Below, piece after piece: positions 36,363-63,586 of a DNA stretch of 64,000 nt. The notes under the pieces were generated by a model. It was not told the origin of the DNA and did no database searches. It saw only the letters and a list, made by a program, of their open reading frames with translations. A program made the position numbers and the translations under genes. The stretch covers positions 806,001-870,000 of the forward strand of contig JBCAML010000008.1 of NCBI GenBank assembly GCA_038503075.1, in the 5' to 3' direction. Positions within the stretch are counted from its first letter, which is position 1. The number at the start of each line of letters is the position of its first letter. The DNA comes from Gyromitra esculenta (lineage: Eukaryota; Ascomycota; Pezizomycetes; Pezizales; Discinaceae).

Positions 36363-38358
36363 CATCCTCCGTCCCCACTACAACCTCTCCGATTGAAAGT
36401 TCACCACCACCTTTTACGTTGCAACGGCGTTACACACAGCCAAAAGTCTTTAGCACTTCGGCTTCATTCCATTACCCCGCTCACAAAAACAAGTTGGATC
36501 CTTGTTTTAACACTACCACTCCGATCGCATGTCTTCAGAAGACACAGCAAGAATCTTCACACCTCTCTTCCCCTCTCTCCAAAGAGGCGAAGCCTCTACC
36601 ACTCCTGCTTCCTCCGCAACTGCCATGGCGGAACCAAGAACCCCCTCACCAGCGAAACGGCAGAGAGCTGACACCTCTCCTCCATCACCACCTGTCTTCT
36701 CCCACCGCACTAATTGGATTTCTATAGTCCAAAATAAGGACAACGGGATTACAGGAGCCCCCATGACCCTCAAGACAGTTAGTCAGTTCCTCACAAGGGC
36801 TGACGAACTGAATCTCGTCCACTTCACCTCCCTCCTTAACATGATTCAGCATCTACAAAGCGAGGTCACCCTACTGAAAGAGGCTGCTAAGAGTCCAGCA
36901 CCTCTCCCGGACATGTTTCCAGAGTCCCCAACTCTAAGCAAACAAGAGCGCATGCACCTCCTCACAGTAGGGAAAGCAGCGCCCTCAGCACCACCTGCAC
37001 CACCAAGTGCTCCTCCTGCTCCTGCTCCTGCTGCTGCAATTCCTGCTCCTCCTGCCCCAAAGCCTTTGCAATGGGCCCAGGTGGCTGCCAGCAAACCCAA
37101 GAGAAAACCCCAACCAGCAAAGGCCAAACAGGCTGCTAACGCTCCTGCTCCTAAGACTTCATCTTCCTCTCCCTCAACATCTCCCACCATGCGCGCTCGC
37201 CGTTTGATTGTCAAATGCGACGGCACTCCCCTTTCTCAGGAATCACCCACGGAACTCAGAGATAAACTCAACTCTGCCATTGGTTCCATCACCATCCAGT
37301 CTGTGGCAATAGACACACATTCCCAGAATGTGTCGTTAATGGTCATGAACAACATGTTTGCCAACACCCATTACAGGAAAGTTGGCCAATTTCTTCACCT
37401 AATCCCAGGAGCTCGCTCCCTACACCTTGACGAACCATTACACCAACTTGTTGTACATGGTATTCTCACCTCTATGGAGCCCGCAGCTATTCAGCAAGAG
37501 CTATGCAACTTCAACCCTGGCCTTATCATGGACATCCCCCCCAGATGGCTCACCCTACCTGAAAAACAAAGAGGGAAAACAGTTTCCTCAATTGTCGTCA
37601 CACTCTCTGGCCCCAAAGCTAATGAGATCGCCAATCGCACTCGATTATCTGCCTTTTTCACCACTGTTAGATCCGAACACAAACTCCGCTTCAGACCCTC
37701 CACCCAGTGCTCCCAATGCCACAAATTTGGACACCACACTAACAAATGACCCAACCAACCATGCTGTTGCTGGTGCGTTGGACTTCATCCTACTGCTGCT
37801 CATAGCTGCCCTACACTCTCTTGCTCAACTAAAGGCCGCCCCTGCTCTCACACTCTTGTCAAGTGTGTTAACTGTGACGGACCCCATGAGTCACACCTGA
37901 ACAGCTGCCCATAATGCCCTTCTAAGGCCTTACAGCCCCCTCCAGCAGATGATCAGATGGACCTCTAGGTCATTTTACTTATACTCGCTCAACCCCAACT
38001 AACTTTGATTGGAATTTTTCCTGGCTGCTTTTTACTTCCACTGCGGCTTTATTGTGGACTTACTTCTACTGTTTCTCATTGTTTTTTTAGCTGTTGTTCA
38101 CAAGTCTCTTTACTTTCACAGGCATTTGTTGTCAATTTTTCCCTGCACTGTTAAGTCGTTTATCTCAGGAACACTGTCTTGTTCTGTTGGAAGTACTTGG
38201 TTCGCTTCTCTTTTGTGTTCTTTTATGTTACCCAGGTGGATAAGGGTGTTTATTTGGTGGGGATAGGTTTTTTGACTTCATAACCTTCGTGTTGCATAAG
38301 CGGTTTTGTACCTAGAAACAATAATCAAATGATTTAAACAAAAAAAAAAAAAAAAAAA
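36363..38358 (+). mobile_element. ORF1-only LINE derivative with poly(A) tail and 15-bp TSD
   Basis: A 2.0-kb plus-strand insertion in B pol. It is flanked by CCATAGAGTGGGCCG at 36348-36362 and 38359-38373 (one more A on the left may belong) and ends in 19 A (38340-38358). Long target duplication plus poly(A) is the mark of target-primed reverse transcription. It contains a gag-like ORF1 and about 390 bases of 3' sequence, but no endonuclease or reverse transcriptase, so it must have been mobilised in trans or is an internally deleted Tad1-like element. Confidence 0.88.
36529..37965 (+). pseudogene. LINE ORF1 (gag-like, CCHC zinc knuckles)
   Basis: Starts MSSEDTARIFTPLF. The first third is Ser/Pro-rich, then comes an Ala/Pro linker (36985-37060) and a conserved C-terminal region. 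The first zinc knuckle is CSQCHKFGHHTNK. A TGA at 37747-37749 falls where a knuckle Cys is expected. Beyond it the same frame continues with CCCWC, HPTAAHSCP and CVNCDGPHESHLNSCP, a further set of knuckles, until TAA near 37912. The ORF1 product of fungal Tad1-like LINEs is an RNA-binding protein with this layout. The stop makes the copy defective. Confidence 0.8.
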
Positions 38359-38373
38359 CCATAGAGTGGGCCG

Positions 38374-39177
38374 AATGGTGGTTCTTTGTCTTTTTGGAGT
38401 GTGATCTTATGGTCGTAAGGGCGGTGGGGGGGAGTCCTTGGGCTTTAGCCTTGCCGAACATGTCTAGGTATTCGTGGTATTCGGCAGGTATTCGTTGCCT
38501 CCACTCTTCCTTAGTAGTCTTGCTATCAAGGACTCTATTGATTTTGTAGAGAGACATAGAATAAACCTGGATACCCTTTTTCCTAGCAAGCATGCGAAAG
38601 CTGGCGGCGCCGATGAAGGTGGCATTGAGTTTTGCTGGAGGGGGGATGGCGGCGGCGGAAAAGATCGGTTGCTTTGGGGCACAGTGGGTGGTACAGAATT
38701 TAGAATTAAATTCAATGTTTTTGTTGGCAAATTGTCGGTGAACGTCATGGAGGTTCATCCAAGGGATGCCAAGTACTAGGGGGTAATGTCCTAGCTTGGT
38801 TACGAAGAAGGGAGCTTTCTCGATGTGTTGTTGAATGGAAAGCTCCAAGTGGCACAGGTTGGTGATATCTCCTGAGGCAATTGTTCGGCCATCAATGACT
38901 TCTAATTGTCGGGGAGATTTGAGGGGAGATAGAGGTAAGGAATGGTGACACACGAAATCTTCATCAATGAAAGTGAACCCTGAGGCTCCAGTGTCTAGAA
39001 GTGCTTGTGTTTTTATAATTTTATTTTTGTGGGAAAGGCTACATGATACTACAAAATGTTCCCCATCCAAATTATCCTCCACACACACATCCGACACTGA
39101 GAACCCAGAAATAGAGAACGCTGATAAAGGAAAAAGATGAACCAGAGCAGGGTCACGAGGCGACTCTGGTTGAATTA
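38374..39177 (-). pseudogene. element B pol, 5' part: aspartic protease
   Basis: It lies in the -1 frame relative to gag and starts at the frameshift site. SVSDVCVEDNLDGEHFVVSC is followed by the protease motif LLDTGASGFTFIDEDF (DTG active site), then GHYPLVLGIPWM and the linker to RT ([18 protein letters not shown]). The piece is open through the protease and then breaks near the LINE junction. Confidence 0.88.
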
Positions 39178-39184
39178 GTTTAAA
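39140..39184 (-). promoter_or_regulatory. -1 frameshift signal of element B
   Basis: On the minus strand, TTTAAAC (39184-39178) is in the gag phase T TTA AAC and is followed at once by the gag stop TAA (39177-39175). After a 6-nt spacer comes a hairpin: arm AACCAGAGT (39171-39163), 14-nt loop, arm GCTCTGGTT (39148-39140). Eight Watson-Crick pairs form plus one wobble. Pol continues in the -1 frame. Confidence 0.85.
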
Positions 39185-40848
39185 GACTCGACTGAGTCTG
39201 CTGCATCAAAGGTAGGAAAACGAGGTGGCAAAGGTGGGGGGAACACAGAAGGAGCGGGAGGGATAGCGATGGCACTAGTGACGGCTCCTCTCATGGCGGG
39301 GCGTTTTGAGGCGGATGGGCAGTTGGAAAAAATATGCCTTTCTCCGGCACAAAACAAGCAGCAGTTATTTGTTTGTCTCCACGTTTTTTCTTCGGGGGAC
39401 AGTTTTCTTCTTCTGTTGACCTGAACATAGCACTGTTCAGGAGCGGGGCGGGAGGTGGAGGTGCGTCCGAAGGAGAGATCCATAGGGGCGAGCCCTCCAG
39501 GGGCGAAGGACGAGGAAGGCGGGAGGGCGGCAGGAGTTGTGACAGGGGTGGTAAATTGTCCCATGGTGTTGCAGACAGCGTTTTTCTTTTCTTCCCTTCT
39601 TACTCGGATGCGATTGTCCAGGCGAAGGAGGAAAGACCAGAGGGAAGTGAAGGTAGTGGGAAAATCGGCAACGGTTACGACTGCTTCCTTCAGCTCATCC
39701 AATATACCATATTCCAAGGCGTCTTTTTTTGCGGACTCGCCACAATTCAGACGTCCCATGATGCGCTGGAAATCGGCAAGGTAGGCGGAAAAATCCCGCT
39801 TCCCTTGTCGGAGTTGGTGTAGTTCACGGCGGGCAGTACCGAGAGGGTTGGGGTCGCCAAAATCTCACGGTTGAGTTCCTCATTAAGCCCTTCAGTATCC
39901 CTGAAGGTGAGCAGTGCTACTTAAGCGAGGTAAACAACACATTTTGAATTGCGCAACGTTCTACAAGTTCTACAGGAGGTCTATCTCAAGGCGAGATAAG
40001 TGCAGCGAAGTAAACAGCGACAGCGAGAGTTCTGAGGTAGAACTGAGATAGTATTCCAGCGATTACAGTAGAAGGTAAACGAGAATGTTGCTTAAGAAAA
40101 GAAAGAGAAAGAGAACAAGAACGACTGAAATCCTTCGCTTAAATACCCCGCTTTCCAGTAACACAATCAACCACCCAACAATAAGCGAGACGTAACTGAA
40201 CAATAAAGCCATTATGTCCAAAGAAATCCTTCACGACTATCAACCACTTCATCTTAACCCATTACCCAGTTCCATCCATGAAACAAAGGCTGTTTCCAGG
40301 GCGGTGATTAGATCGGTAGCGGAGTTCCAGGTGGTGGTTCCGTCAGGAAGGTCGGAGTGACCGATCTGTTCGAGGGTGGCTCCCTCGAGATGGCTGATAG
40401 CATACAATATCATATTGTTGCTACTGGAAAAGCAGTTGGCGTTAACCGAGAGTTTAGATCGGAGCTGTAGGACGAAGCCGGGGAGTTTATCGCGAGACCC
40501 GTTGAACTTATCTGGGTCAGGCATCTTATCTGAACGGCCTCCTTGAGTATGGGCAGGCGGTGGTGGTGGCGGTGGTGTGGGTGGCGGAGGAGGAGCGATG
40601 TTGCGGAGGCGAGAGACTTCTGCTTCTGCTGCCTGTAACTGAGATTGGCAAGTGTTAAACCTCGCCGTCATGTTGTTCCTCTCTTGGGTGACCTCTTCGA
40701 GTTGTAGGTCAGCATAGGTGAGGTTTTCGATCCTCTGTTGGTAGTGGGAGTGAACTTCTTCGTAGGCGGAAGCGAGGTCGGCGTTAGCGGCGGCTTGGAA
40801 GTTCTCAAAGGTAGGAAAGGTCCAAGGGGCGGGGGCGGGGTTGCTCAT
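39175..40848 (-). pseudogene. element B gag, split by a solo LTR
   Basis: ATG at 40848 gives MSNPAPAPWTF. There is a coiled-coil-like N-terminal region, a Pro run, then the capsid-like block MPDPDKFNGSRDKLPGFVLQLRSKL. After the solo LTR (39863-40283) it continues LHQLRQGKRDFSAYLADFQRIMGRLN and reaches a zinc knuckle CLFCAGERHIFSNC (CX2CX4HX4C). It ends SVESLN before TAA. Apart from the insertion, gag is open. The leader before it is only 57 bases and lacks the small ORF seen in other copies. Confidence 0.88.
39863..40283 (-). repeat. solo LTR in element B gag, TSD CAAA(A/G)
   Basis: 421 bases, TCTCACGG...CCATGAAA on the plus strand. Flanks are CAAAA (39858-39862) and CAAAG (40284-40288). Comparison with other gag copies (CCAAAGGC) shows CAAAG was original, so one repeat has mutated. 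Confidence 0.88.
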
Positions 40849-45266: not shown

Positions 45267-45675
45267 TTTCACGGATTAAGGATAGGAAATAGGGTTAGGT
45301 CTCGGTTCGATGGTTGTTAGGGGATTTGAGTTGTCATCAATGTTATTGTATTTCGGTTGTGATTGGTTACTGGGTTTATCGGGAAAAGCGGGGTATTTAA
45401 ACGATGGATCTCGTTCGTTCTTTGTCTTCTTCTTCTTTCTTTAAGCAACGTTCTTGTTTATCTTCTCCTGTAAATTGTCGGAATACTACCTCGGTTCTAC
45501 CTCAGAACCCTCACTGTCGCTTTTTACTTCGCTGCACTTATCTCGCCTTGAGATAGACCCCTTGTAGAACTTGTAGAAAAATGCCGCACTCTTTGAACGT
45601 GTTGTTATCTCGTTTAAGTAGCACTGCTCACCTTCAGGGATACTGAAGGGTTTAACGAGAAACACAACCGTGAGA
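45267..45675 (+). repeat. 5' LTR of element C
   Basis: TTTCACGGATT...ACCGTGAGA. A TATTTAA box lies near 45398-45404, the self-primer AAGCAACGT at 45443-45451, and R-U5 hairpins with loops ACCTC, GCCTT and GGATA follow. Directly after it are TT and ACGTTGCTT (45678-45686). Confidence 0.92.
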
Positions 45676-45677
45676 TT

Positions 45678-45686
45678 ACGTTGCTT
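45678..45686 (+). promoter_or_regulatory. self-complementary primer-binding site
   Basis: ACGTTGCTT two bases after the LTR is the exact complement of AAGCAACGT inside the LTR. It does not begin with TGG, as a tRNA-primed site would. Confidence 0.75.
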
Positions 45687-45726
45687 CCATCATCTACACC
45701 TTCTACCGCAGAAAACAACCTCTTGC

Positions 45727-45879
45727 ATGGAAATCATCACTCGGATTCGCCAATCCATTCTAAGCATCTTTCCTTGCTTAACGCTGCGAAAACCACAACC
45801 TTTGGTTGAAGTCATTCCCGAGTGGCTGGATCAAGAGTACTTACGCAAGAACTCTTTCCCTCGGCCAACAACAACATGA
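45727..45879 (+). CDS. conserved small ORF upstream of gag (element C copy)
   Basis: 50 codons from ATG 45727, with IRQSILSIFPCLTLRKPQ and PEWLDQEYL. Its TGA (45877-45879) overlaps the gag ATG (45876-45878) as ATGA. The frame is also open back into the LTR end. Compared with the E copy, many changes are at third codon positions (Pro CCC/CCT, Leu CTG/CTT, Asp GAT/GAC), which speaks for selection on the protein. Function unknown; it could be a translational control ORF. Confidence 0.62.
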   Translation: MEIITRIRQSILSIFPCLTLRKPQPLVEVIPEWLDQEYLRKNSFPRPTTT

Positions 45880-47198
45880 GCTCACCCGCTCCCGCTGGCC
45901 CTTCCACTGAAGGAGCTGCTGTCGCCACCCAACGCTTCCCCACTAGAGAAGCCTTTGCCCAAGCCTTGAGAGAGGATGCTGCTGAGCTGTATAATCACCT
46001 CAGAGACCTCTACCAAGCCTTGGAGGACCAAATTGACGTCCTTCAAGAAAATGAAAGGGAAGCTGAGGTAAAAGTTGGCACAGCAAAAATTCAGACCGAC
46101 AACACCCTCCGTCATGCTACCGAACAAGATCAACGGGTTACTGAAGCCGCCAGCCTAATCGCCCGGTTACGACAAGAGCGAAATGAAGCTCGATCCATCA
46201 ACCAAGCACCCCCCACTCCACCCAACCTCACTGCCACCCCACCTCCACCAACAAACTCCCATCGCTCGGAACGGATGCCTGACCCGGAGAAATTCGATGG
46301 GTCCCGAACCAAACTCCCCAGCTTCATCCTCCAGCTACGCTCTAAGCTAACCGTCAACCGGGACCGCTTTGCAAATGAGACCACCATGATCCTTTATACC
46401 ATCAATCGACTAGAAGGAGCAGCTCTGGAGCAAGTTCGCCACACTGTTCTCCCCTCGGGCCTTACCACCTGGACCAGCGCGGAACAACTTATCACCGCCC
46501 TGGAAACCGCCTTTGGAGACCCAGACCCAACCGGCACCGTTCGACGAGAACTCCACCAACTCCGCCAAGGGAAACACGATTTTTCGGCGTATCTAGCCGA
46601 TTTTCAAAGAATCATGGGACAACTGAATTTCGATGAGAATTCAAAAATGGATGCATTGGAACACGGTATGTCGGAAGAACTGAAAGAGGCTATGGTGTTC
46701 GCACCCATCGCCCCTGCCACCCTCCAAGAGATGATTCTCACCTTTACCCAGCTGGATAATCGTATCCAAGCCCGAAAGGCAGAGAAGCAAGGAAACACCC
46801 GCGAAGGTATGGGCCAGTTCAGTGCTCCTGCCACCTTCACCCCGACCTCCTCCTTTACTTCAGGAGGACTAGCCCCCATGGACCTATCTTTTGGTCGCAC
46901 TAGCAATACCTCTCGCCCCCCTCAGGATCAACGATATACGATGGTTAATGGAAGAAGGAAGCTCTCGGAGGAAGAAAAGCAGTGGCGCAGCTCCACCAGA
47001 AAATGCATGTTTTGTGCTGCTCCGGATCACTCATACGCCAACTGTCCCTCCGCTCCAAAAAAGCCAACTATGAGAGGAGCCCTTACCGCACCCCCCGCCC
47101 CCCGTACACCCGCTGCCTCCTCTCTACCGCCACCACCTCTCCCCCCTCAGTTTTTTGCGCTAGAATCTGCAAGCGCCTCAAATGAGGCTTTAAACTAG
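45876..47198 (+). CDS. element C Gag
   Basis: Structural protein that packages the element RNA into virus-like particles. 440 residues from MSSPAPAGPSTEGAAV. A coiled-coil region (about residues 40-110) is followed by a Pro-rich linker. The capsid-like block runs from MPDPEKFDGSRTKLPSFIL through LHQLRQGKHDFSAYLADFQ. The zinc knuckle CMFCAAPDHSYANC (CX2CX4HX4C) is followed by a Pro-rich end. The frame is fully open. The ATG was chosen because it overlaps the small ORF stop. The last codons are GAG GCT TTA AAC before TAG, which forms the frameshift heptamer. Confidence 0.92.
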   Translation: MSSPAPAGPSTEGAAVATQRFPTREAFAQALREDAAELYNHLRDLYQALEDQIDVLQENEREAEVKVGTAKIQTDNTLRHATEQDQRVTEAASLIARLRQERNEARSINQAPPTPPNLTATPPPPTNSHRSERMPDPEKFDGSRTKLPSFILQLRSKLTVNRDRFANETTMILYTINRLEGAALEQVRHTVLPSGLTTWTSAEQLITALETAFGDPDPTGTVRRELHQLRQGKHDFSAYLADFQRIMGQLNFDENSKMDALEHGMSEELKEAMVFAPIAPATLQEMILTFTQLDNRIQARKAEKQGNTREGMGQFSAPATFTPTSSFTSGGLAPMDLSFGRTSNTSRPPQDQRYTMVNGRRKLSEEEKQWRSSTRKCMFCAAPDHSYANCPSAPKKPTMRGALTAPPAPRTPAASSLPPPPLPPQFFALESASASNEALN

Positions 47199-47233
47199 TT
47201 CAACCAAGGCTGACCAGTGACCCTGCCTTGGTT
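47189..47233 (+). promoter_or_regulatory. -1 frameshift signal of element C
   Basis: TTTAAAC (47189-47195) in gag phase T TTA AAC, then stop TAG, a 6-nt spacer including the stop, stem AACCAAGGC (47202-47210), a 14-nt loop, and GCCTTGGTT (47225-47233), nine perfect pairs. Pol is open in the -1 frame from 47186 across the gag stop. Confidence 0.88.
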
Positions 47234-50200
47234 CCAAATTCTTTTCCTTTGTCTGCATTTTCAATTTCTGGGTTTTCAGTTTCCGGTATCAGCGTGGAGG
47301 ATCAATTGGATGGGGAACATTTTGTAATTTCTTGCAACATTTCCCATAGCAATAAAATCATTAAAACACACGCTTTATTGGACACTGGAGCCTCTGGATT
47401 TGCATTCATTGACAAGAATTTTGCAAGTCACCATTCATTCCCCCTCTCTCCTCTGAAAACGCCCAGACAACTAAAAGTTATCAATGGTCGCCCTGTTGCC
47501 TCAGGGGACATCACCCACATCGCCAACCTCAATCTGTCTATACAAAACCAACGTGAACAAGCTCCCTGCTTTGTGACCCAACTCGGCCACTACCCTTTAG
47601 TTTTAGGAATACCATGGATGAATCATCACGATGTCCAGCTTCATTTCGCCGACAAACGCATTGAGTTTAATTCTAAACTCTGCACCACCCACTGTGCCCC
47701 TCATTCCCATGTTGTATCCACCCCATCGATCCCCGCTCCTCCAAGGTTGAATATGTCTTTCATCAATGCTGCCAGCTTCAGGACCCTTACTCGAAAACGG
47801 TCCCTGCAAGCTTACGCAATGTCCCTCTATGAAATTAATAAAATTCTAGAGGAGAAGACTACGAAAGAAGAATGGAGAGCAAGGATCCCCACCGAATACC
47901 ATGACTTCTTGGACATGTTTGACAAAAAGAAAGCCCAAGGTCTATCACCACGTCGACCCTATGACCATAAGATACAACTTCAAGACAGAAAAGAAGCACC
48001 ATTTGGTCCTCTGTACGGAATGTCTCGGGAAGAACTAATAGTCCTGAAAAAATACATTGAAGACAACCTTGAAAAGGGTTTTATCCGAGCCAGCTCTTCG
48101 CCTGCCGGATCCCCTGTCCTCTTTGTCAAAAAGGCTGACGGCTCCCTCTGCTTATGTGTAGACTATCGTGGCCTTAATGCAATTACAGTGAAGGACCGTT
48201 ATACCTCTCCCCTTATCCGTGAAACACTTGATCGACTAGCGAAAGCACAATGGTACACCAAACTTGACCTCCGCGACGGCTACCACCAAATCCGTATTGC
48301 TGAAGGGGATGAATGGAAAACTGCCTTCCGCACCCAATATGGCCTCTACGAATATCAAGTTATGCCATTCGGCCTAACTAATGCACCTGGCACTTTTCAA
48401 CGCTTTGTCAACGACTGTCTGTTTCATGGATGGTTGCTTTTATTGATCAGTTAGGTACGGGGTTGCAAGGTTATCATGTTGTGTTGTTCTTTCCTATGTT
48501 TCTTTGGGTTCCTGTTACAATGAGTCACGTCTTTGTCATCGAACGAGTTGGAATGAGGTATATAAGCTAAGGGATTCCCCCTCTTGTTGTACTTTTCCTT
48601 CTTCTTTCCCTAAGCAACGTCTTCTATTGTACACTCACTGTATCTTACAAATACAACCTCAGATTACACCTCGTAATCTTTCGCTGTCGCCGTCTTCAAG
48701 TCATCATAACTTGAACCATTGGTAGAGCCTGTAGAACCTTCGTGCATCCTCTCGTCGTTAGTTTCTTGTCCAAGTAGCACTGCTTATCTCGGGGGATACC
48801 TGAGAGCTTGGCGAGAATCTCGCTCCCTGAGAGTCTGAGAGAATACCTAGATATTTTCTGCACTGCCTATCTTGATGATATCCTTATCTATAGCGATACC
48901 TTTGCAGAGCATCAAGTCCACGTCAGAAAGGTGCTGCAAACTCTCAAAGAAAATGATATCCTACTGAAGCCGGAGAAATGCGAGTTCCAAGTACAAACTA
49001 CCAAGTACCTAGGACTCATCCTCACCCCCGATGGTATCAAAATGGACGAGGAAAAGCTCAAAGCTGTACGAGAATGGGGCACTCCAAAGAGTGTTAAGGA
49101 TGTACAAGCCTTTTTAGGGTTCGCCAATTTCTATCGACGATTTATCCTAGGGTTCTCAAAACTTGCCTCTCCACTTACAGCATTGACAAAGAAAGGGATT
49201 AGCTTCGAATGGACCGTCGAAGCAGACATTGCCTTCGAGAATTTAAAGCACCCCTTTACCACAGCACCAATTCTAATCCACTTCGACCCTGATAAAAAGA
49301 TTATAGTCGAAACCGATGCTTCTGATTTTGTGTCTGGAGGAGTGCTATCCTAATATGACAATGCCGGCGTTTTACACCCTGTAGCCTTCTTCTCCAAGAA
49401 GCATTCACCTGCTGAATGCAACTATGAGATTTACGATAAGGAGCTACTGGCTATCATCAGGGTATTCGAAGAATGGTGCCCAGAACTCGAAGGATCAAAA
49501 CATCCTATCGACGTTATCAGTAATCACAAGAACCTCGAGTATTTCATGAGTACCAAGCAACTTAACCATCGTCAAGCCAGATGGGCTGAGTACTTATCTC
49601 GCTTTGATTTTGTGATTACATACCGACCAGGCAAAGAAGGAGGGAAACCGGATGCATTGACTCGGAGATCAGGAGATCTCCCCAAGGAAGGGGATGAAAG
49701 ATTAGCACACCAGAGTCAAGTGGTGCTAAAGAAGGAGAACATTGACCCTAAGATAAGTTTGTTGTCGGCTTCTTTATCAAATGAAGCCGGTGTATTGGAC
49801 GCCCCCCTAGAAAAGCTTTTTCTAGAAGGCTATATGGCTGACAAGTTTCCGGAAAAGATACTCGTAGCGCTAGGGAATAAAGACCAACAGTCGAAGGAAA
49901 TCACTCTAAGTGAATGTACCAACGAGAATAACCGATTGTGCTACTGAGGAAACCTCTATGTACCCAACTTCGATCCTCTTCGCCTGGAACTTATTAAAAG
50001 ACATCATGACGCCCCTGCTGCAGGACACCCTGGACGAGATAAAACCTTCGAACTAATCAGTAGAACCTTTTACTGGCCAAAGATGAGGGAATCAATCGAC
50101 CGTTATGTACGCAACTGCCATATTTGTCAAAAGGCAAAACCTGTCAGCCAACGTACCTCAGGAGTCCTCTGTCCCCTACCCATACCAAATCGCCCCTGGC

Positions 50201-51315
50201 AAGAAGTCTCGATGGACTTTGTGACAGGCCTTCCAGAGTCAAACGGGCATGATGCCATGATGGTAGTAGTCGATCGGCTATCCAAAATGCGACACCTAAT
50301 TCCTTGTAATACTACTGTCAACTCCAGAGATGTAGCCGACTTGTATTTACAACACATTTGGAAACTACACGGACTCCCTATGCATGTCACCTCCGATCGA
50401 GGCACTCAGTTCACTGCCCACTTCTGGAAAGAAGTATGTCAACGCTTAGGCATACAGGCCCGGATGTCTACCGCCTTTCACCCAGAAACAGATGGACAGA
50501 CAGAAAGGTTAAATGCAGTAATGGAACAATATCTACGCTCCTACGTATCGTACCAACAAGAAGATTGGAGTAAGTGGCTACCGATGGCAGAATTCTCTGC
50601 TAATAACCAGGAATCAGCAAGCACGAAGGTATCCCCCTTCTTTGCCAACTACGGCTATCACCCCTGATTTGATACCTCTCTGGTTCCGACGATCAATACC
50701 CCTCAAAGTCAAGATGCTACTACGTTCACTAGTCGAATGCAAGAGCTACATGACCATCTAAGGACACAAATTAGGGTCGCACAGGACGTTCAGGAAACCG
50801 CTACTAATAAGCACAGAACCCCAGCACCAGCATATCGAGTTAACGACCCTGTCTTCGTATCAATGAAGAATGTGAGAACTACACGAAATGCCCGAAAACT
50901 GGACTGCAAATGGATGGGACCTTATTCTGTTAAACAAGTGATCTCCCCTTTCGCCAACGAAATCGAGCTACCAACTTCAGTCAAGTATCACCCGGTTTTT
51001 CATGTTTCTTTATTGAAACCTGCCCCCAACGACGCTCTCCCTGGCCAAATAATACCTCCTCCAATGCCTGTTATTGTTAATGACCAGGAGGAGTATTATA
51101 TCGAGAAAATCTTAGATCATCGCATCCATCGAGGAAAATCGCAATATCTGGTGGAATGGACGGGCTATGCTCACCCTACCTGGGAACCTGCCGAAGACCT
51201 TAAAGATGCTGTCGCCCTTGATACCTTTCTCGCCCAACAGACCGATCCAACTTCTGGTGCTCACAGGAGCTCACGCTTGAAGAGGGAAGCTACTTTCACG
51301 GATGGAACCCGGTAA
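47196..51315 (+). pseudogene. element C pol, interrupted
   Basis: Order: protease (LLDTGASGFAFIDKNF), RT ([41 protein letters not shown]), solo LTR at 48422-48832, RT active site [10 protein letters not shown], and RNase H ([12 protein letters not shown]). Integrase follows ([12 protein letters not shown]...[48 protein letters not shown]), then the chromodomain (YYIEKILDHRIHRGKSQYL). After removal of the LTR and one 5-base repeat the frame is continuous. In-frame stops stand at 49351 (TAA for CAA), 49945 (TGA for CGA) and 50665 (TGA for CGA), all single C-to-T changes. The stop codon (51313-51315) lies inside the 3' LTR. Confidence 0.9.
48422..48832 (+). repeat. solo LTR of the B family in element C, TSD GTCTG
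   Basis: 411 bases, TTTCATGGATGG...CGCTCCCTGAGA, flanked by GTCTG at 48417-48421 and 48833-48837. It shows that B-family elements were active after C inserted. Confidence 0.92.
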
Positions 51316-51716
51316 TAGGTTAGGATGAAGTTGTTGGTATTTACGGAGGATTTCCTTGGATATAATGGCTTTGTTGTTCAGTTACGTTTCGGTTGTCGTT
51401 GACTTGTTGGTTTGTGTTACGTGAAAGCGGGGTATTTAAGTGAAGGATTTCAGTCGTTTTTGTACTCTTCTTCTTCTTTCCTTAAGCAACGTTCTCATTT
51501 ATCTTCTCCTGTAAATTGTCGGAATACTACCTCGGTTCTACCTCAGAACCCTCGCTGTCGCTGTTTACTTCGCTGCACTTATCTCACCTTGAGATAGACC
51601 CCTTGTAGAACTTGTAGAAAAATGCCGCACTCTTTGAACGTGTTGTTATCTCGTTTAAGTAGCACTGCTCACCTTCAGGGATACTGAAGGGCTTAACGAG
51701 AAACACAACCGTGAGA
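51294..51716 (+). repeat. 3' LTR of element C
   Basis: 423 bases starting TTTCACGGATGGAACC, preceded by the purine tract AGAGGGAAGCTAC. From the middle on it is nearly identical to the 5' LTR; the first part differs more. Confidence 0.9.
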
Positions 51717-51984: not shown

Positions 51985-53283
51985 ATGGAAGGGGCCGCCG
52001 TCGCCGCAAAATGCTTCCCCACCAGGGAAGCTTTCGCCCAAGCCTATAGAGAAGATCCCGCAGAGCTCTACAATGAACTCAGGGACCTCAACCAAGCCCT
52101 GGAAGACCAAATCGATGTCCTCCAGGAAAGCGAGCGAGAAAATGAGGTCAAACTCAACACCGCTCACATTCAGACTGACAACGCCCTCTGTCAGGCTGCG
52201 GAACATGACCAACGGGTCACAGAGACTGCTAACCTGATCGCCCGGTTACGGCAAGAGCGAAACGAGGCTCGAGCCACCATTCAAGCACCCTCCGCTCCAC
52301 CCAACCTTAGCGCCACCCCACCTCTAACAAACTCCCACCGCTCAGAACGGATGCCAGATCCCGAGAGGTTCGATGGGTCCCGAGCTAAGCTCCCAGGCTT
52401 TATACTCCAACTGCGCTCTAAGCTTACCGTTAATCGGGACCGCTTTGCAAACGAAACCACGATGATCCTATACACCATTAATCGGCTAGAAGGAGCAGAG
52501 CTAGATCAGGTCCACCACACCGTTCTCCCCTCCGGCCTAACCACATGGACTAGTGCAGAACAACTCATCGCCGCTCTAGAAACTGCTTTCGGAGACCCAG
52601 ACCCAACCGGCACAGCCCGACAAGAACTCCACCAGCTTCGTCAAGGGAAACATGACTTTTCAGCCTATCTAGCCGACTTCCAAAGAATCATGGGACAGCT
52701 TAATTTTGATGAGAATTGGAAAATGGACGCCCTAGAACATGGCATGTCGGAAGAGCTGAAAGAAGCTATGGTGTTCGCACCCATTGCCCCTGCCACTCTC
52801 CAAGAGATGATCCTCACCCTCACCCGGCTGGACAATCGTATCCGAGCCCGTAGAGCAGAGAAAAGAGGAAATACTCACGAGAATATGGGCCAATTCAGTG
52901 CCCCCGCCGCCTTCACCACTGCCTCCTCCTTCACCCCAGGAGGACTAGCCCCTATGGACCTGTCTTTCGGCCGCACTAGCAATATCTCTCGCCCTCCTCA
53001 AGACCAAAGATATACTATGGTCAATGGGCGAAGAAAACTCTTTGAGGAAGAAAAACAGTGGCGCCGATCCACTGGAAAATGTATGTTCTGCGCCGCCCCC
53101 GACCACTCTTACGCCAACTGCCCCTCTGCACCAAAGAAACCAACAATGAGAGGAGCTCTCACCACGATCACCAATACAGCTACTCCTCCCGCTTCCTCCG
53201 TTCGCCAACTTCCCCTGCCTCCACTACCCCCACAGTTCTTTGCGATTGACGCCCCTGACGCCTCCGAGGAGTCTTTAAACTAG
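51985..53283 (+). CDS. element D Gag, 5'-shortened
   Basis: 432 residues from MEGAAVAAKCFPTREAFAQ. The usual first ten or so residues (MSSPAPA...) are missing, so the true start is lost with the leader deletion. The frame is open through MPDPERFDGSRAKLPGFIL, LHQLRQGKHDFSAYLADFQ and the zinc knuckle CMFCAAPDHSYANC. It ends GAG TCT TTA AAC before TAG. Confidence 0.85.
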   Translation: MEGAAVAAKCFPTREAFAQAYREDPAELYNELRDLNQALEDQIDVLQESERENEVKLNTAHIQTDNALCQAAEHDQRVTETANLIARLRQERNEARATIQAPSAPPNLSATPPLTNSHRSERMPDPERFDGSRAKLPGFILQLRSKLTVNRDRFANETTMILYTINRLEGAELDQVHHTVLPSGLTTWTSAEQLIAALETAFGDPDPTGTARQELHQLRQGKHDFSAYLADFQRIMGQLNFDENWKMDALEHGMSEELKEAMVFAPIAPATLQEMILTLTRLDNRIRARRAEKRGNTHENMGQFSAPAAFTTASSFTPGGLAPMDLSFGRTSNISRPPQDQRYTMVNGRRKLFEEEKQWRRSTGKCMFCAAPDHSYANCPSAPKKPTMRGALTTITNTATPPASSVRQLPLPPLPPQFFAIDAPDASEESLN

Positions 53284-53318
53284 TTCAACTGAAGTCACCC
53301 AGTGACCCTGCTCCGGTT
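53274..53318 (+). promoter_or_regulatory. -1 frameshift signal of element D
   Basis: TTTAAAC (53274-53280), TAG, 6-nt spacer, arm AACTGAAGT (53287-53295), 14-nt loop, arm GCTCCGGTT (53310-53318). One A-C mismatch and two wobbles weaken the stem, as expected for a decaying copy. Confidence 0.78.
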
Positions 53319-56300
53319 CCTTTTTCTTTACCTTTGTCTGCGTTTTCGATTTCAGGCTTCTCAGTGTTGGATATGTGCGTGGAGGATCAATTGGATGGGG
53401 AACATTTTGTTATTTCTTGTAGCATTTTCTCACGGTTGAGTCCCTTGCTAAGCCCTTCAGTATCCCTGAAGGTGAGCAGTGCTACTCAGATGGGGGAACA
53501 ACACGTTTGAAGAGTGCAATGTTTTCTACAGGTCCTACGGAGGGTTTGGTATCTCAAGGCGAGATAGAAGTAGCAAAGTGAACAGCAACAGCGAGAATTC
53601 TGAGGTAGAACCGCGATAGTAATTAAATAATACACAAGAAGGTAACGAGAACGTTGCTTAAGGAGAAAAGAGAAAGAAAGACAAAAACGACTAAAATCCT
53701 TCACTTAAATACCCCGTTCTTTCTGTAACACCAACAACAACCAGAACAGCAACCGAAACACAAAGACATTGTTCCCAGTAACTGAAATCCATCCCGACCA
53801 ATCACATAATCCTTAACAGACCTCTTCACTTCGATCCGTGAAACATTTCCTATAGTAATAAAATTATCAAAACCCACGCACTATTGGACACTGGAGCCTC
53901 TGGATTCGCTTTCATTGATAAAGAATTCGCGAGTCACCATTTCCTACCTCTTTCCCCTCTCAAAACACCTAGACAGCTTGAAGTTATCAATGGCCGCCCT
54001 GTCCCCTCAGGAGCCATCACCCATATCGTCAACCTTAACCTATCCATCCAACAGCACCAAGAACAAGCCCCCTGCTTTGTCACTCAGCTTGGTCATTATC
54101 CCCTGGTCCTAGGAATTCCATGGATGAACTATCATGACGTTCATCTCCACTTCGCTGATAAACGCATTGAGTTTAATTCTAAGCTCTGCACCACCCACTG
54201 TTCCTCCGATACGGCCATTGTATCTGCCCCCTCAATTTCTGTTCCAGCCAAACTAAACGTTTCATTTATCAATGCCGCTAGCTTCAGGACCCTCACTCGA
54301 AAACGATCCTTACAAGCATATGCTATGTCCCTCTACAAAATTAATAGAATTCTAGAGGAAAAAACTACTAAGGAAGAATGGAGAGCAAGAATTCCTGCAG
54401 AATACCATGACTTTTTAGACATGTTCGACAAGAAGAAAGCTCAAGGTCTATCACCACGTCAACCATATGACCATAAAATACAACTCCAAGACGGAAAAGA
54501 AGCCCCTTTCGGCCCCCTGTATAGAATGTCCCGGGAGGAGCTTATCGTCCTAAAGAAGTATATTGAAGATAACCTTGAAAAAGTTTTCATCCGAGCCAGC
54601 TCTCCGCCTGCTGGATCACCTGTCCTCTTTGTAAAAAAGGCCGATGGCTCTCTTCGCCTATGCGTGGACTATCGAGGCCTTAATGCTATACGGTTAAGGA
54701 CCGTTATACATCTCCCCTTATCCGAGAGACTCTTGATCAACTAGCAAAGACACAATGGTATACCAAGTTGGATCTTCGCGATGGATATCATCAAATTCGA
54801 ATCGCTGAAGGGGATGAATGGAAAACTGCCTTCAGCACCCGTTACGGTCTTTATGAGTATCAAGTCATGCCTTTTGGTCTAATCAACGCCCCCGGAACGT
54901 TCCAATGCTTTGTGAACGACTGCCTCACGGAATATCTCAACATCTTCTGTACCACCTACCTAGATGACATTCTCATCTACAGTGACACCTTCGCTGAACA
55001 CCAAATCCATGTTCGAAAGGTCCTACAAGCGCTCAAAGACAATGACATCCTGTTGAAACCGGAAAAATGTGAATTCGAGGTACAAACAACAAAATACCTT
55101 GGCCTCATCCTCACCCCCGATGGCATTAGAATGGACGAGGAAAAACTGAAGGCCGTCCGGGAATGGGGCACACCGAAAAGTGTTAAGGATGTTCAAGCTT
55201 TCCTAGGGTTTACCAATTTCTACCGCCGGTTTATCCTAGGATTCTCTAAACTTGCTTCGCCCCTGACAGCTCTTACAAAGAAGGGGATTATCTTCGAATG
55301 GATGGTAGAAGCGGATATTGCCTTCGAAAACCTTAAGCATGCTTTTACCACTGCCCTGATCCTCATCCACTTCGACCCGGATAAAAAAATCATTGTCGAA
55401 AGCGATGCCTCAGACTTTGTATCCGGAGGTATCCTGTCACAATACGATGATGCCGGAGTACTACATCCTGTAGCATTCTTCTCTAAGAAGCACTCGCCCG
55501 CTGAATGCAACTATGAGATTTATGACAAAGAACTACTAGCCATCATCCGTGTGTTCGAGGAATGGCGCCCAGAGCTTGAAGGCTCTAAGCATCCTATTGA
55601 CGTCATTAGTGACCATAAAAATCTTGAGTACTTTATGAGTACTAAACAACTCAATCGTCGACAGGCCAGATGGGCTGAGTACCTATCCCGCTTCGATTTT
55701 GTGATCACCTACCAACCAGGCAGCCAAGGAGGAAAACCGGACGCATTGACTAGGAGATCGGGAGATCTCCCCAAAGAAGGGGATGAAAGATTGGTACACC
55801 AGAGTCAGGTGGTGTTAAAGAAAGAAAACATTGACCCTAAGATAAGTTTGTTGTCGGCTTCTTTGTCAAATGAAGTTGCTGAATTGGACGCCCCTCTGAA
55901 AAAACTCTTCCATGAAGGATTCATCGCTGACAAGTTCCCCGAAGAAATACTTGAAGCACTAAGGAATAAGGATCAACAATCAAAAAAGATCACCTTAAGC
56001 GAGTGCACTGAGGAAAACGGAAGACTATGTTATCGAGGATGTATCTACGTCCCTAACCTAGATGCCCTCCGCTTGGAATTAATTCAAAGACACCATGATA
56101 ACCCTGCAGCAGGCCATTCAGGATGAGATAAGACGTTTGAACTCCTTACTAGAAGTTTCTACTGGCCCAAGATGTGAGAATCAATTAAACGATATGTGCG
56201 TAATTGCCACATCTGCCAGAAAGCGAAGTCAGTTACCCAGCAAACTCATGGAGTTCTCTGCCCTCTACCTATTCCAAACCGTCCTTGGCAAGAAATTTCG

Positions 56301-56642: not shown

Positions 56643-57507
56643 TTTCACGGATGAAGCGAAGTGATGGGTTAGGGTTTGGGTAGTAATGGATGCAGCGGAA
56701 GATAGGTTTTTATAATGTCTTTGTTGTTCGGTTACGTTTCGGTTATGAGTCACGAGAGGGATTGCGGGGTATATAAGGACTGTCTCACGGTTGAGTCCCT
56801 CGTTAAGCCCTTCAGTATCCCTGAAGGTGAGCAGTGCTACTTAAATGAGGTATCAACGCGTTCAAAGAGTGCAGCGTTTCTACAGGTTCTACGATGGGTC
56901 TATCTCAAGGCGAGATAAGTGCAGCGAAGTAACAGCGACAGCGAGGATTCTGAGGTAGAATCAAGATAGTATTCCGACAAGTACAGAAGAAGGTAAACGA
57001 GAACGTTGCTTAAGGAGAGAAGAGAAAGAGAAACAGGAATGACCGAAATCCTTCACTTAAATACCCCGCTTTTCCTGTAGCACCAACAACAACCCGACAA
57101 CAACCGAAGCACAAAGACATTATCCCAATAACCAAAATATAACCGAACAACAAAGAGATTATACAACCATCCAAACAACGATATAACTAGCAACCAGACC
57201 ACGATTCCTTCCCTAAATCAATCCATGAAAGACTGGTTCTTAGACAGTTGTTGTGGTTTTCTTCTTCTTTCTTTAAGCAACGTTCTTACTGCACTTCTAC
57301 TGTATTGCTTTAATACTACCTCGATTCTACCTCAGAATCCTTGCGGTCGCTGTCGCTGAGAAAACCTTGACACTTAACTCGCCTTGAGTTAGACCCACGT
57401 AGGACCTGTAGAAACATCGTGACTCTGATCGCTTGATCTCTCGCTTAAGTAGCACTGCTCACCTTCAGGGATACTGAAGGGCTTAACGAGGAATCAAGAC
57501 CGTGAGA
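56643..57507 (+). repeat. 5' LTR of element E, interrupted by a solo LTR
   Basis: Parts 56643-56782 and 57236-57507. TATATAA at 56770-56776; self-primer AAGCAACGT at 57275-57283, about 45 nt after TATA once the insert is removed. Hairpins: GATTCT-ACCTC-AGAATC (57323-57339), TAACTC-GCCTT-GAGTTA (57375-57391), CCTTCAG-GGATA-CTGAAGG (57462-57480) with an outer stem CTTAAG/CTTAA and CTCG/CGAG (57440-57490). Confidence 0.92.
56783..57230 (-). repeat. solo LTR inside the 5' LTR of E, TSD GACTG
   Basis: 448 bases, TCTCACGG...CCATGAAA on the plus strand, flanked by GACTG at 56778-56782 and 57231-57235. It lies just after the TATA box of the host LTR and so separates the promoter from the start of the RNA. 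Confidence 0.92.
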
Positions 57508-57509
57508 TT

Positions 57510-57518
57510 ACGTTGCTT
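57510..57518 (+). promoter_or_regulatory. self-complementary primer-binding site of E
   Basis: ACGTTGCTT, exact complement of AAGCAACGT at 57275-57283, two bases after the LTR end. Confidence 0.78.
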
Positions 57519-57550
57519 CCTCATCTACACCTCCTACTCAACACCCCTAC

Positions 57551-57706
57551 CTGGAGATTCTAGGTTGGATTCGCCAATCCATCCTACAAATCTTTCCTTG
57601 TTTAACGCCGCGAAAACCCCAAACTCTCGCCGAAACCACTCCTGAGTGGCTTGACCAACATTACCTACGCACCAACTCCCTTCCGTGTGATCAACCAAGA
57701 TCATGA
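57551..57706 (+). CDS. conserved small ORF upstream of gag (element E copy)
   Basis: 51 codons, with LEILGWIRQSILQIFPCLT and PEWLDQHYL. The ATG of the other copies is CTG here, and the frame is open further 5' to the primer-binding site. The TGA (57704-57706) overlaps the gag ATG (57703-57705) as ATGA. Start loss or use of CTG would affect how gag is reached by ribosomes. Confidence 0.58.
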   Translation: MEILGWIRQSILQIFPCLTPRKPQTLAETTPEWLDQHYLRTNSLPCDQPRS

Positions 57707-59043
57707 GCTCCCCCGCACCCGCTGCCTCCTCCTCTGAAGGAGCTGCTGTCATCACGCCACGTTTCCCTACAAAAGAAGCGTTTGCTCAAGCCTATAGAGA
57801 TAACCCCGTCGAGTTGTATAACCAACTCCGGGAACTCAACCAGGCTCTCGAAGACCAAATCGACGCTCTGCAAGAAGGAACACAGGAACTAGAGATAAAA
57901 CTCAACACCGCTCAGATCCAAGCGAACAATGCTAACCACCACGCCCAACAACAAGACCAACGAGTCAACCACACCTCAACCCTCATTGAACGATTACGCC
58001 GTGAACGGAATGAAGCTCGGGAGGCCACTCAAGCACCCCCAGCCCCACCAAATCTCACCGGCACACCTCCCCCCGCCCCAGCTGTTGTGACTCATCGATC
58101 AGAACGTATGCCAGACCCAGAGAAGTTTGACGGGTCACGAAGCAAACTCCCCGGTTTTGTGCTCCAACTACGCTCAAAGCTCACAGTAAACAGAGACAGA
58201 TTCGCGGATGAAAACACGATGATTCTCTACACCATCAACCGACTAGAGGGAGCCACTCTAGAACAAGTCCGTCACACTGTCCTTCCATCGGGCCTCACTA
58301 CCTGGACCAATGCCGCCGCCCTCATCTCTGCATTAGAAACTGCCTTTGGCGATCCAGACCCCACCGGTACAGCTCGCCGAGAACTACATCAGCTCCGACA
58401 AGGCAAACGAGACTTTTCCGCTTACCTAGCTGATTTTCAACGCATCATGGGACAACTCAACTTTGATGAGAATTCGAAGATGGATGCCCTGGAACATGGT
58501 ATGTCGGAAGAATTAAAGGAAGCTATGGTCTTTGCCTCCGCTGTACCTGCTACCCTCAACGACATGATCCTAGTTCTCACCCGAATGGACAACCGCATCC
58601 GAGCCCGTAAGGCAGAGAAACGAGGCAACGCCCGTGAGAGCTTGGGACAGTTCAGTGCCCCAACCAATGCAATGACTCCCTTTGTCCCCGCCTCATCGTT
58701 TATACCAGGAGGCCTTGCTCCCATGGATCTCTCCTTCGGACGTACTAGCAACCTCTCTTGACCCCCTCAGGACCAAAGATACACTATGGTCAATGGCAGA
58801 AGGAAGCTATCAGAAGAAGAGAAACAATGGCGCCGTGCCACTGGTAAATGTATGTTTTGTGCCGCCCCCGATCACTCTTACGCCAACTGTCCCTCCGCCC
58901 CAAAAAAACCCACAATGAGAGGAGCACTCACCGCCCCTCCTGCCAATCGTACACCTCCCGCCTCTTCTCTACCACCACCACCTCTTCCTCCTCAATTTTT
59001 TGCTCTCGAATCGTCCAGCGCCTCCGAGGAGGCTTTAAACTAA
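57703..59043 (+). pseudogene. element E gag with one nonsense codon
   Basis: MSSPAPAASSSEGAAV, a coiled-coil region, capsid-like MPDPEKFDGSRSKLPGFVL to FSAYLADFQRIMGQLN, zinc knuckle CMFCAAPDHSYANC, and GAG GCT TTA AAC TAA at the end. A single TGA at 58759-58761 stands where C and D have CGC Arg in SRPPQD. Otherwise the frame is intact, 446 codons in all. Confidence 0.9.
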
Positions 59044-59078
59044 TTTCACCGAAGTCGATCAGTGACCCTGCTTCGGTT
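59034..59078 (+). promoter_or_regulatory. -1 frameshift signal of element E
   Basis: TTTAAAC (59034-59040), stop TAA, 6-nt spacer, arm CACCGAAGT (59047-59055), 14-nt loop, arm GCTTCGGTT (59070-59078). Seven Watson-Crick pairs plus a wobble. Pol reads on in the -1 frame through the gag stop. Confidence 0.88.
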
Positions 59079-62000
59079 CCTTTTTCTTTACCTTTGTCTG
59101 CGTTTTCCATTTCGGGGTTTTCAGTGTCGGATATGTGCGTGGAGGATGGATTGGATGGGGAACATTTTGTTATTTCTTGTAGCATTTCCCATAACAATAA
59201 AATTATCAAAACCCACGCACTATTGGACACTGGCGCCTCAGGATTCGCTTTCATTGACAAAGAATTTGCGAGTCACCATTCTTTACCTCTTTCACCCCTA
59301 AAAACATCGAGACAACTTGAGGTTATTGACGGCCGTCCCGTAGCCTCTGGGGATATCACCCATATTGCTAATCTCAACCTATCTATTCAACAACACCAAG
59401 AACGCCTTCCATGCTTTGTTACTCAACTAGGACACTACCCCCTCGTTCTCGGAATCCCATGGATGAATCATCACGATGTACAACTCCATTTCGCCGATAA
59501 ACGCATTGAGTTTAACTCTAAACTCTGCACCACCCACTGCGCCCCCCACTCTCCTGTTGTGTCCACACCTTCAATCCCTGCTCCCCCTAGGCTAAACATG
59601 TCATTTATTGGTGCCGCTAGTTTTAGAACTCTCACCAGAAAACGAACCTCCCAAGCGTATGCCATGTCGCTCTACGAGATTAATAAAATCTTAGACAACC
59701 AGACCACCAAGGAAGAATGGAAATCACGTATACCTATCGAATACCACGATTTTCTTGACATGTTTGACAAAAGTAAAGCCCAAGGCCTACCCCCTCGCCG
59801 ATCTTACGACCATCGAATTCAACTCCAGGAAGGAAAAGACGCCCCATTTGGACCGCTGTACGGAATGTCCCGTGAAGAGCTTATTTTCATGGATTGACTT
59901 AGGGAAGGAATTGTGGTCTGGTTGCTGGTTTTGTCGTTGTTTGGATGGTTGTATAATTTCTTTGTTGTCCGGGTATATTTTGGTTATTGGAATAATGTCT
60001 TTGTGTTTCGGTTGTTGTCGGGTTGTTGTTGGTGTTACAGGAAAAGCGGGGTATTTAAGCGAAGGATTTCGGTCATTCATGTTTCTCTTTCTCTTCTTTC
60101 CTTAAGCAACGTTCTCGTTCACTTCTACTTGTATTATCTTAATACTATCTCGGTTCTATCTCAGAACCTTCGCTGTCGCTGTGAAACATCGCCAATACTT
60201 CGCCTTGAAGTATACCCCCCGTAGAACTTGTAGAAATACCGCACTCTTGGAATGAGTTAGTATCTCGCTTAAGTAGCACTGCTCACCTTCAGGGATACTG
60301 AAGGGCTTAACGAGAGACTGAACCGTGAGACTTATTGTCTTAAAAAAATACATCAAAGACAATTTAGAGAAAGGATTTATCCGTGCCAGCTCTTCTCCTG
60401 CAGGGTCCCCCGTCCTCTTTGTTAAAAAGGCCGACGGCTCTTTACGACTATGTGTTCACTACCGAGGCCTAAACGCCATTACAGTCAAAGACCGTTATAC
60501 CTCTCCTCTCATTCGAGAAACGCTCGATCGGTTAGCAAAAGCGCAATGGTATACGAAGCTAGACCTCCGCGACGGTTACCACCAAGTACGCATTGCCGAG
60601 GGAGATGAATGGAAGACAGCCTTCCGCACCCGATACGGTTTATACGAGTATCAGGTCATGCCGTTCGGCCTGACCAATGCCCCCGGAACGTTCCAACGCT
60701 TTGTGAACAACTGCCTCACCGAATATTTGGACATCTTCTGTACTGCATACCTGGATGATATCCTTATTTACAGCGATACCTTTGCCGAACATCAGGACCA
60801 CGTCCGAAAGGTTCTCCAAACACTCAAGGACAATGACATCCTGTTGAAACCGGAAAAATGCGAATTCGAGGTACAAACTACGAAGTATTTGGGTCTCATC
60901 CTCACCCCCGATGGCATCAAGATGGACGAGGAAAAACTCAAAGCCGTCCGAGAATGGGGAACACCAAAAAGCATTAAAGACGTCCAAGCCTTCCTAGGTT
61001 TCGCCAACTTTTACCGTCGGTTCATCCTAGGATTCTCCAAGCTCGCCTCACCCCTCACAGCACTCACAAAAAAGGGGATTATCTTCGAATGGACTGTCGA
61101 GGCAGATATTGCTTTTGAAAATCTCAAGCATGCCTTTACCACTGCCCCTATCCTCATTCATTTTGACCCCGATAAAAAGATCATCGTAGAAACAGATGCC
61201 TCCGATTTTGTATCCGGAGGCGTCCTATCTCAATACGATAATGACGGTGTCTTGCATCCAGTAGCATTCTTCTCAAAGAAACACTCCCCCGCTGAATGCA
61301 ATTACGAAATTTACGACAAGGAACTGCTGGCAATTATTCGAGTTTTCGAAGAATGGCGCCCCGAACTAGAAGGATCAAAACACCCCATCGATGTGATCAG
61401 CGATCATAAAAACCTTGAGTATTTTATGAGCACTAAACAGCTAAACCGCCGCCAAGCACGATGGGCGGAATACCTCTCTCGTTTTGACTTCGTAATTACA
61501 TACCGACCAGGCACTCAAGGAGGAAAACCCGATGCATTAACCAGGAGATCAGGAGATCTCCCCAAGGAAGGGGATGAAAGATTGGCGCATCAAAGCCAAG
61601 TGGTATTAAAAAAGGAGAATATCGACCCTAAGATAAGTTTGTTGTCGGCTTCTTTGTCAAATGAAGCCACTGAATTGGACGCCCCCCTTTTTAAACTCTT
61701 TCAAGAAGGGTATATCACTGACAAATTCCCGGAAAAGATACTCAAGGCGTTGAAGAATAAAGAGCAGCAATCTAAGGAAATTACCCTAAGCAAATGCAGT
61801 AATGATAATAACCTACTACGCTACCGCGATTGCCTCTATGTCCCCAATCTTGATTCTCTCCGGCTTGAACTTATCCAAAGACACCACGATACTCCAGCGG
61901 CAGGACACCCTGGACGCGACAAAACCTTCGAACTTTTAGCCCGAAGTTTTTATTGGCCAAAGATGCGAGAATCGGTCAGTCGGTATGTACGAAACTGCCA

Positions 62001-63195: not shown

Positions 63196-63586
63196 TGGGT
63201 TAGGGTTTGGGTAGTAATGGATGCAGCAGAAGATAGGTTTTTATAATGTCTTTGTTGTTCGGTTACGTTTCAGTTATGAGTCACGAGAGGGATTGCGGGG
63301 TATATAAGGACTGGTTCTTAGACGGTTGTTGTGGTTTTCTTCTTCTTTCTTTAAGCAACGTTCTTACTACACTTCTACTGTATTGCTTTAATACTACCTC
63401 GATTCTGCCCCAGAATCCTTGCGGTCGCTGTCGCTGAGAAAACCCTTACACTTAACTCGCCTTGAGTTAGACCCACGTAGGACCTGTAGAAAACATCGTG
63501 ACTCTGATCGCTTGATCTCTCGCTTAAGTAGCACTGCTCACCTTCAGGGATACTGAAGGGCTTAACGAGGAATCAAGACCGTGAGA
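63174..63586 (+). repeat. 3' LTR of element E
   Basis: 413 bases, preceded by the purine tract AGAAGGGGAGCTAC. TATATAA at 63301-63307 and AAGCAACGT starting at 63353. The loop of the first hairpin is altered (GCCCC for ACCTC). Confidence 0.93.

Follow-up and report, generated by a model that had tools for sequence, protein, structure and literature searches.

Tf1/sushi chromoviruses outside fission yeast predominantly produce Gag-Pol by -1 frameshifting, as stated in the part of PMC10085805 that cites Gao et al. 2003. Grasshopper is named there as one such element, and the accompanying tree includes MAGGY, Tcn1, skippy, sushi-ichi and others. According to the same part of that source, the fission yeast elements differ in having either a single frame (Tf1 and Tf2, which belong to the Tf1/sushi group) or an in-frame stop (the Tj1 type), together with a Gag that lacks CCHC, and the plant cluster of chromoviruses usually carries a single frame. 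Fungal elements use both +1 and -1 frameshifting, and on mammalian ribosomes U UUA AAC ranks with the most slippery heptamers (excerpts of PMC5009743). The IBV signal, which carries UUUAAAC, gives 10-15% frameshifting in yeast, and a cellular gene in a filamentous ascomycete uses -1 frameshifting (excerpts of PMC3777964). Stimulatory structures are placed 6-9 nt from the slippery site in the relevant section of PMC3835772 and 5-9 nt in that of PMC3777964.

Here we describe the gag-pol junction of Ty3/gypsy elements that occupy the right half of the window, by which we mean the whole 64-kb stretch of DNA analysed, taken from a genome of 47.1 Mb in 23 contigs. When six frames were scanned, the frames of three elements, called C, D and E, gave partial matches to Gag, protease, reverse transcriptase (RT) and RNase H models, and element E additionally matched integrase, SH3_Tf2-1 and chromodomain models. 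The chromodomain (PF00385) was found in E, where it lies at the integrase C-terminus (residues 886-929 of a 956-aa frame). A CCHC knuckle (C-x2-C-x4-H-x4-C) lies near the end of gag in all four window copies, the fourth being element B. By chromodomain and CCHC Gag, the elements appear to fit the Tf1/sushi chromoviruses. They resemble the members with -1 frameshifting, as described in part of PMC10085805, in their chromodomain, CCHC Gag, -1 pol frame and possible self-priming match. With fission yeast Tf1, Tf2 and the Tj1 type they have the chromodomain in common, and a Tf2-like SH3 domain model matches here. Among the 120 listed of 7976 pol relatives, most of those named by organism are from Morchella sextelata. 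Judged by these relatives and by its genes, the host is probably a filamentous ascomycete. In viral contigs, 28 stretches matched a pattern derived from aligned pol sequences and none of them encoded a relative.

Element C, as judged from its LTR pair, extends from about 45351 to 51716 on the plus strand, with a left LTR (45351-45675) that is 90.7% identical to the right LTR (51387-51716). Its open gag frame (45822-47198) matches the Retrotrans_gag and DUF4939 models, and the start of pol, which includes protease and RT, occupies the -1 frame at 47195-48454 (the listed ORF begins at 47228). Element E is also on the plus strand and extends from about 57228 to 63586, with LTRs at 57228-57507 and 63306-63586 that are 97.2% identical. 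The gag part of E (57703-58761) is in a frame that ends at 59043, and its pol consists of a first part in the -1 frame (59040-59897) and a remainder beyond an insertion (60325-63195) that carries RT, RNase H, integrase, SH3_Tf2-1 and the chromodomain. The sequence at 59885-60330 interrupts this pol, and within it 59885-60122 repeats 56993-57230 in inverted orientation (94%). Element B is on the minus strand, where the end of gag is open to its stop (39175-39759) and the start of pol is a listed ORF in the -1 frame (38312-39097) whose frame is open back to the heptamer.

Element D is a decayed copy adjoining C. Its gag lies directly 3' of the right LTR of C, and no separate LTR pair for D was found among the pairs listed at 88% identity or more. 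The LTR at 51387-51716 may be common to C and D as a recombined tandem. Relative to C, element D carries about 420 extra bases (53430-53840) 3' of its junction, ahead of the protease stretch. Immediately downstream of the 5' LTR, C and E carry the same 9-mer (within 45676-45690 and 57508-57522, respectively), whose exact reverse complement is inside the LTR. This arrangement is possibly the one expected for Tf1-type self-priming; element B gave only an 8-nt match elsewhere in the same comparison, where LTR edges are approximate. No Rfam family matched in the window at the gathering score.

At the junction, the gag frame of B, C, D and E ends at T TTA AAC followed at once by a stop codon, and all four keep the -1 frame open through the site. 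The heptamer fits the X XXY YYZ form in the 0 (gag) frame. TTTAAAC and the stop begin at 47189 (TAG) in C, 53274 (TAG) in D, 59034 (TAA) in E and 39184 on the minus strand (TAA) in B. Beyond the site, the -1 frame continues into protease in C, E and B, and in D it stops inside the insertion 3' of the junction. The preliminary description had placed the heptamer directly before the gag stop in these copies, with pol in the -1 frame and no stop across the site, and the sequence agrees on both points at all four positions. The Rous sarcoma virus gag-pol site presumably resembles this arrangement in having a stop codon directly 3' of the heptamer, and presumably differs in its heptamer and in a larger stimulator.

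A hairpin follows the heptamer. In element C, the heptamer (47189-47195) is followed by the TAG stop (47196-47198), which is the first half of a 6-nt spacer, and then by the 5' arm of the stem (47202-47210), a 14-nt loop with a nearly invariant GTGACC (47211-47224) and the 3' arm (47225-47233). The corresponding junctions, with heptamer, stop and hairpin, are at 53274-53318 in D, 59034-59078 in E and 39140-39184 (minus strand) in B. The claim of a 9-position stem in each copy stands as to layout, because every window copy has the 6-nt spacer, 9-nt arms and a 14-nt loop containing GTGACCCT. It does not hold as to pairing throughout. Good stems are present in B (nine pairs) and C. Element E has eight pairs and lacks the outermost one (C opposite T), and the hairpin of D is decayed, with 8 of 9 positions pairable, one A-C mismatch and two G-U pairs. 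When 52-nt segments are folded, the minimum-energy structure includes the stem in C (-13.5 kcal/mol), E (-9.7) and B (-11.7) but not in D. These folds are only modestly better than those of shuffled sequences (z of -2.1 for C, -2.0 for E and -3.1 for B, with +0.7 for D), and over 112 nt this advantage is gone in C and E (z of -0.2 and +0.8).

As regards structure and spacing only, the 6-nt distance falls inside the 5-9 nt range of known stimulators. In the UUUAAAC rows shown in an excerpt of PMC3835772, nidovirus signals use the same heptamer with spacers of 3-7 nt, and they have detected pseudoknots whose first stems are mostly of 11-14 bp, with two rows at 5 bp. In contrast, the fungal elements here have a stem of 8-9 bp and no established pseudoknot partner. 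PaYIP3 of the Pezizomycotina, as described in sections of PMC3777964, resembles the present signal as a case of -1 frameshifting in filamentous ascomycetes with a structure that carries compensatory changes, but it differs in being a cellular gene with a non-canonical U UUU UCC, a pseudoknot and a 2-nt spacer.

Copies of the junction are abundant in the genome. A pattern consisting of the heptamer, TA and GTGACC, with at most two mismatches, gave 614 matches. The reversed pattern gave 111, so that about 500 matches are in excess of this control. Copies L001-L030 cluster along one contig (C1), including its first 23 kb. We also assembled a sample chosen independently of the signal, using protease-region stretches of B, E and D as queries and reading the upstream DNA at 80 of the 120 listed places. 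The junction was visible at once in 73 of these 80. At two more places (L062 and L138) it was found upstream with longer stretches (L141 and L147), and at L087 the heptamer and stop are kept and the hairpin is rearranged. The junction was not found at the other four (L089, L096, L116 and L120), where the sequence matches other parts of the element. TTTAAAC is thus present in 76 of 76 junctions that could be located, from 80 places in a sample that covers the relatives of B, C, D and E only. After the junctions of L141 and L147, other sequence begins.

For comparative analysis, 60 loci found by pattern or query were combined with the 73 sampled copies and the 4 window copies, giving 137 copies of which 126 are distinct; the three junctions recovered later were left out. 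TTTAAAC is present in 126 of 126, a count that leans towards the heptamer because the heptamer pattern was used to choose 30 of the loci and a junction-containing query the other 30. Its seven positions show zero inferred changes among these copies, and many flanking positions change repeatedly. The next codon is TAG in 116 copies, TAA in 8, TCG in 1 and TTG in 1, so that a stop abuts the heptamer in 124 of 126. The 6-nt spacer is in register in every copy.

Strong evidence for covariation supports the stem. A first tree was built with FastTree from short flanks of the 126 copies, with the hairpin excluded, and changes were placed by parsimony; the null was random placement of changes according to branch length in 2000 simulations. 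Both columns of a pair change on the same branch 14 times, compared with a mean of 2.4 expected and a maximum of 8 in any simulation, and 11 of these 14 events end in a standard pair whereas 3 do not. By pair from 1 to 9, the joint changes number 0, 0, 0, 3, 5, 1, 2, 1 and 2. Tests of single pairs are clear for pairs 4, 5 and 7 (P of 0.001, below 0.0005 and 0.0055, respectively) and only marginal for pairs 6, 8 and 9 (0.051-0.055). Pairs 1 to 3 show no joint change in this tree, and pairs 2 and 3 are nearly constant. Standard pairing is possible for pair 1 in only 85 of the 126 copies and for pairs 2 to 9 in 119 to 126. The supported stem is positions 2 to 9.

Several controls bear on these counts. 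With the true arms 94.8% of cells are paired, versus 20-49% when the arms are slid against each other, and on the first tree between 1 and 5 joint changes remain after such sliding. When columns of the two arms were matched at random, a count of 14 was reached in 0.018% of 100000 trials. A second tree, based on 1950 flank columns from 61 distinct loci, yields 12 joint changes, all in pairs 5 to 9 and all leading to standard pairs, where 2.2 are expected and 7 is the maximum in 2000 simulations. Pair 4 has no joint change on this tree of 61 loci, and its slid-arm controls reach up to 7. Joint change thus arises in part from recombination or errors in the tree, since even slid arms show it. The covarying stem first proposed from the window copies is nevertheless upheld by the copies across the genome on both trees.

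The loop is conserved more strictly than its coding role calls for. The sequence GTGACCC (47217-47223 in element C) occurs unaltered in 123 of the 126 copies, and this extends to positions that are synonymous in pol. Third positions of pol codons within the loop (23, 29 and 32) changed 1, 0 and 0 times, compared with 2 to 24 times for most third positions downstream (positions 50 and 59 are also low, at 2 and 0), and 11 changes fell at loop position 26 and 10 at loop position 35. The Asp codon of the loop is GAC in 60 of 60 cases, whereas three other Asp columns favour GAT (25 of 28, 55 of 57 and 56 of 59). Where the Ser before this Asp is replaced by Cys (four copies) or Arg (one copy), GT is kept. 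Because synonymous positions are near-invariant, the Asp codon is fixed and GT persists across the Ser replacements, the loop looks constrained as RNA.

A partner for the loop was sought in 64 stretches, comprising 60 loci of 3.0-3.6 kb (some from the same place) and 4 window stretches, and the best common position for a pseudoknot of at least 6 pairs occurred in only 15 of 64. Between +46 and +110, at least 5 pairs can form at one position in 80 of the 126 copies; for 40 shuffled versions of the loop the mean is 63 and the highest value 109. No partner stood out against this control, and a pseudoknot is not supported within the stretches searched. Covariation cannot decide on loop pairing because the loop hardly varies. 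Inner loop pairs 20-32, 22-30 and 23-29 are possible in 123 to 126 of 126 copies; we did not adopt this helix, since 21-31 is possible in only 81 of 126 and the helix competes with the main stem. A closing pair between G23 and C34 is possible, as G-C or G-U, in 125 of 126 copies, and it does not covary. A tentative suggestion is that GTGACC(C) makes a functional contact, such as with a pseudoknot or long-range kissing partner, with the ribosome or as a Gag-binding site. In this case, frameshifting might be tuned by a tertiary or trans interaction and not by a plain stem.

Heptamer, stop, spacing and frame relation are all conserved, and the arms change in a compensatory manner. With high confidence, we regard the signal as one for programmed -1 ribosomal frameshifting at the gag-pol boundary in a large family of Tf1/sushi-like chromoviruses, and programmed -1 frameshifting in these elements is very likely. 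We infer slippage itself, its stimulation by the stem and Gag-Pol as a minor product. Most ribosomes would read T TTA AAC and terminate at the next codon to yield Gag. A minority, stalled by the stem about 6 nt ahead, would undergo slippage of both tRNAs back by one base onto TTT AAA and resume reading as CTA, and the product would be Gag-Pol with a pol part that begins with protease. The earlier reading of programmed frameshifting, judged on sequence, thereby gains strong support from the genome-wide copies.

The frames themselves bear on other routes to pol. Long flanks were available for 61 copies. In 53 of them the -1 frame runs for 100 codons or more beyond the site before any stop, compared with medians of 4 codons (maximum 94) in the 0 frame after the stop and 7 in the +1 frame. 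Readthrough of the stop would therefore not reach the pol frame, because the 0 frame closes after a median of 4 codons. The best 38 pol matches among 1550 candidates were scored; their pol frames span 1218-1389 codons, and 29 have no internal stop. Because this frame never exceeds 1389 codons in these matches, which is too short for both, gag is not fused to pol. Expression of pol from its own start, by internal initiation, by reinitiation following the abutting stop or from a transcript of its own, with the hairpin serving this start, would be consistent with a gag stop just upstream of pol. Of the same 61 copies, 3 have no protease motif, 2 have a stop before it and 56 are open to it; a Met precedes the motif in 15 of these 56 but is absent in 41, counting AUG starts. 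Moreover, initiation needs no slippery heptamer, yet the heptamer is kept without inferred change, and we consider a separate start highly improbable. An intron that takes out the gag stop and shifts the frame is slightly less probable again. For Tcn1, gene prediction introduced an intron at a junction of this kind, but a passage of PMC10085805 that reports it calls this intron wrongly annotated.

The hairpin also invites other explanations. Pairing of the arms could be an accident of protein coding or shared descent, given that the copies are related and the slid-arm controls are not zero. However, the branch-based counts and the random matching of arms contradict this, and the residues that pol encodes in the arms vary between copies (R/K/E; L/S/Q) while pairing stays. 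Because these residues differ, pairing is not a by-product of protein conservation, and we give an accidental origin almost no credence. Another proposal is that the stem-loop is an RNA packaging, dimerisation or protein-binding element that lies beside the frameshift site, where the heptamer would shift without it. GTGACC is near-invariant beyond coding need, which a plain stem stimulator would not require. On the other hand, the spacer, in register in all copies, is within the stimulator ranges quoted in the excerpts of PMC3835772 (6-9 nt) and PMC3777964 (5-9 nt), which makes a separate element unlikely, though less so than the alternatives above.

The preliminary description had called frameshifting a notable departure, on the ground that many chromodomain elements have a single fused frame. 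This does not hold, because -1 frameshifting is the predominant mode in Tf1/sushi chromoviruses from outside fission yeast, according to the part of PMC10085805 cited above; the single fused frame is right for Tf1 and Tf2 and usually for the plant cluster, of which the contrast is true. No paper on this signal was among the open-licence papers listed, which says little. The mechanism is already known in this element group, and the present family is a very clean further example. What makes it worth keeping is the depth of its natural covariation record, plus the unexplained loop. Annotation that assumes one gag-pol frame would probably mis-model these elements, and Tcn1 is such a case in the text of PMC10085805. 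The genome probably holds several hundred natural variants of one frameshift signal, which show clearly how a stem and a conserved loop have been maintained beside a slippery site during evolution. These variants could be used to measure the contribution of a short stem, and of the loop it carries, to fungal frameshifting.
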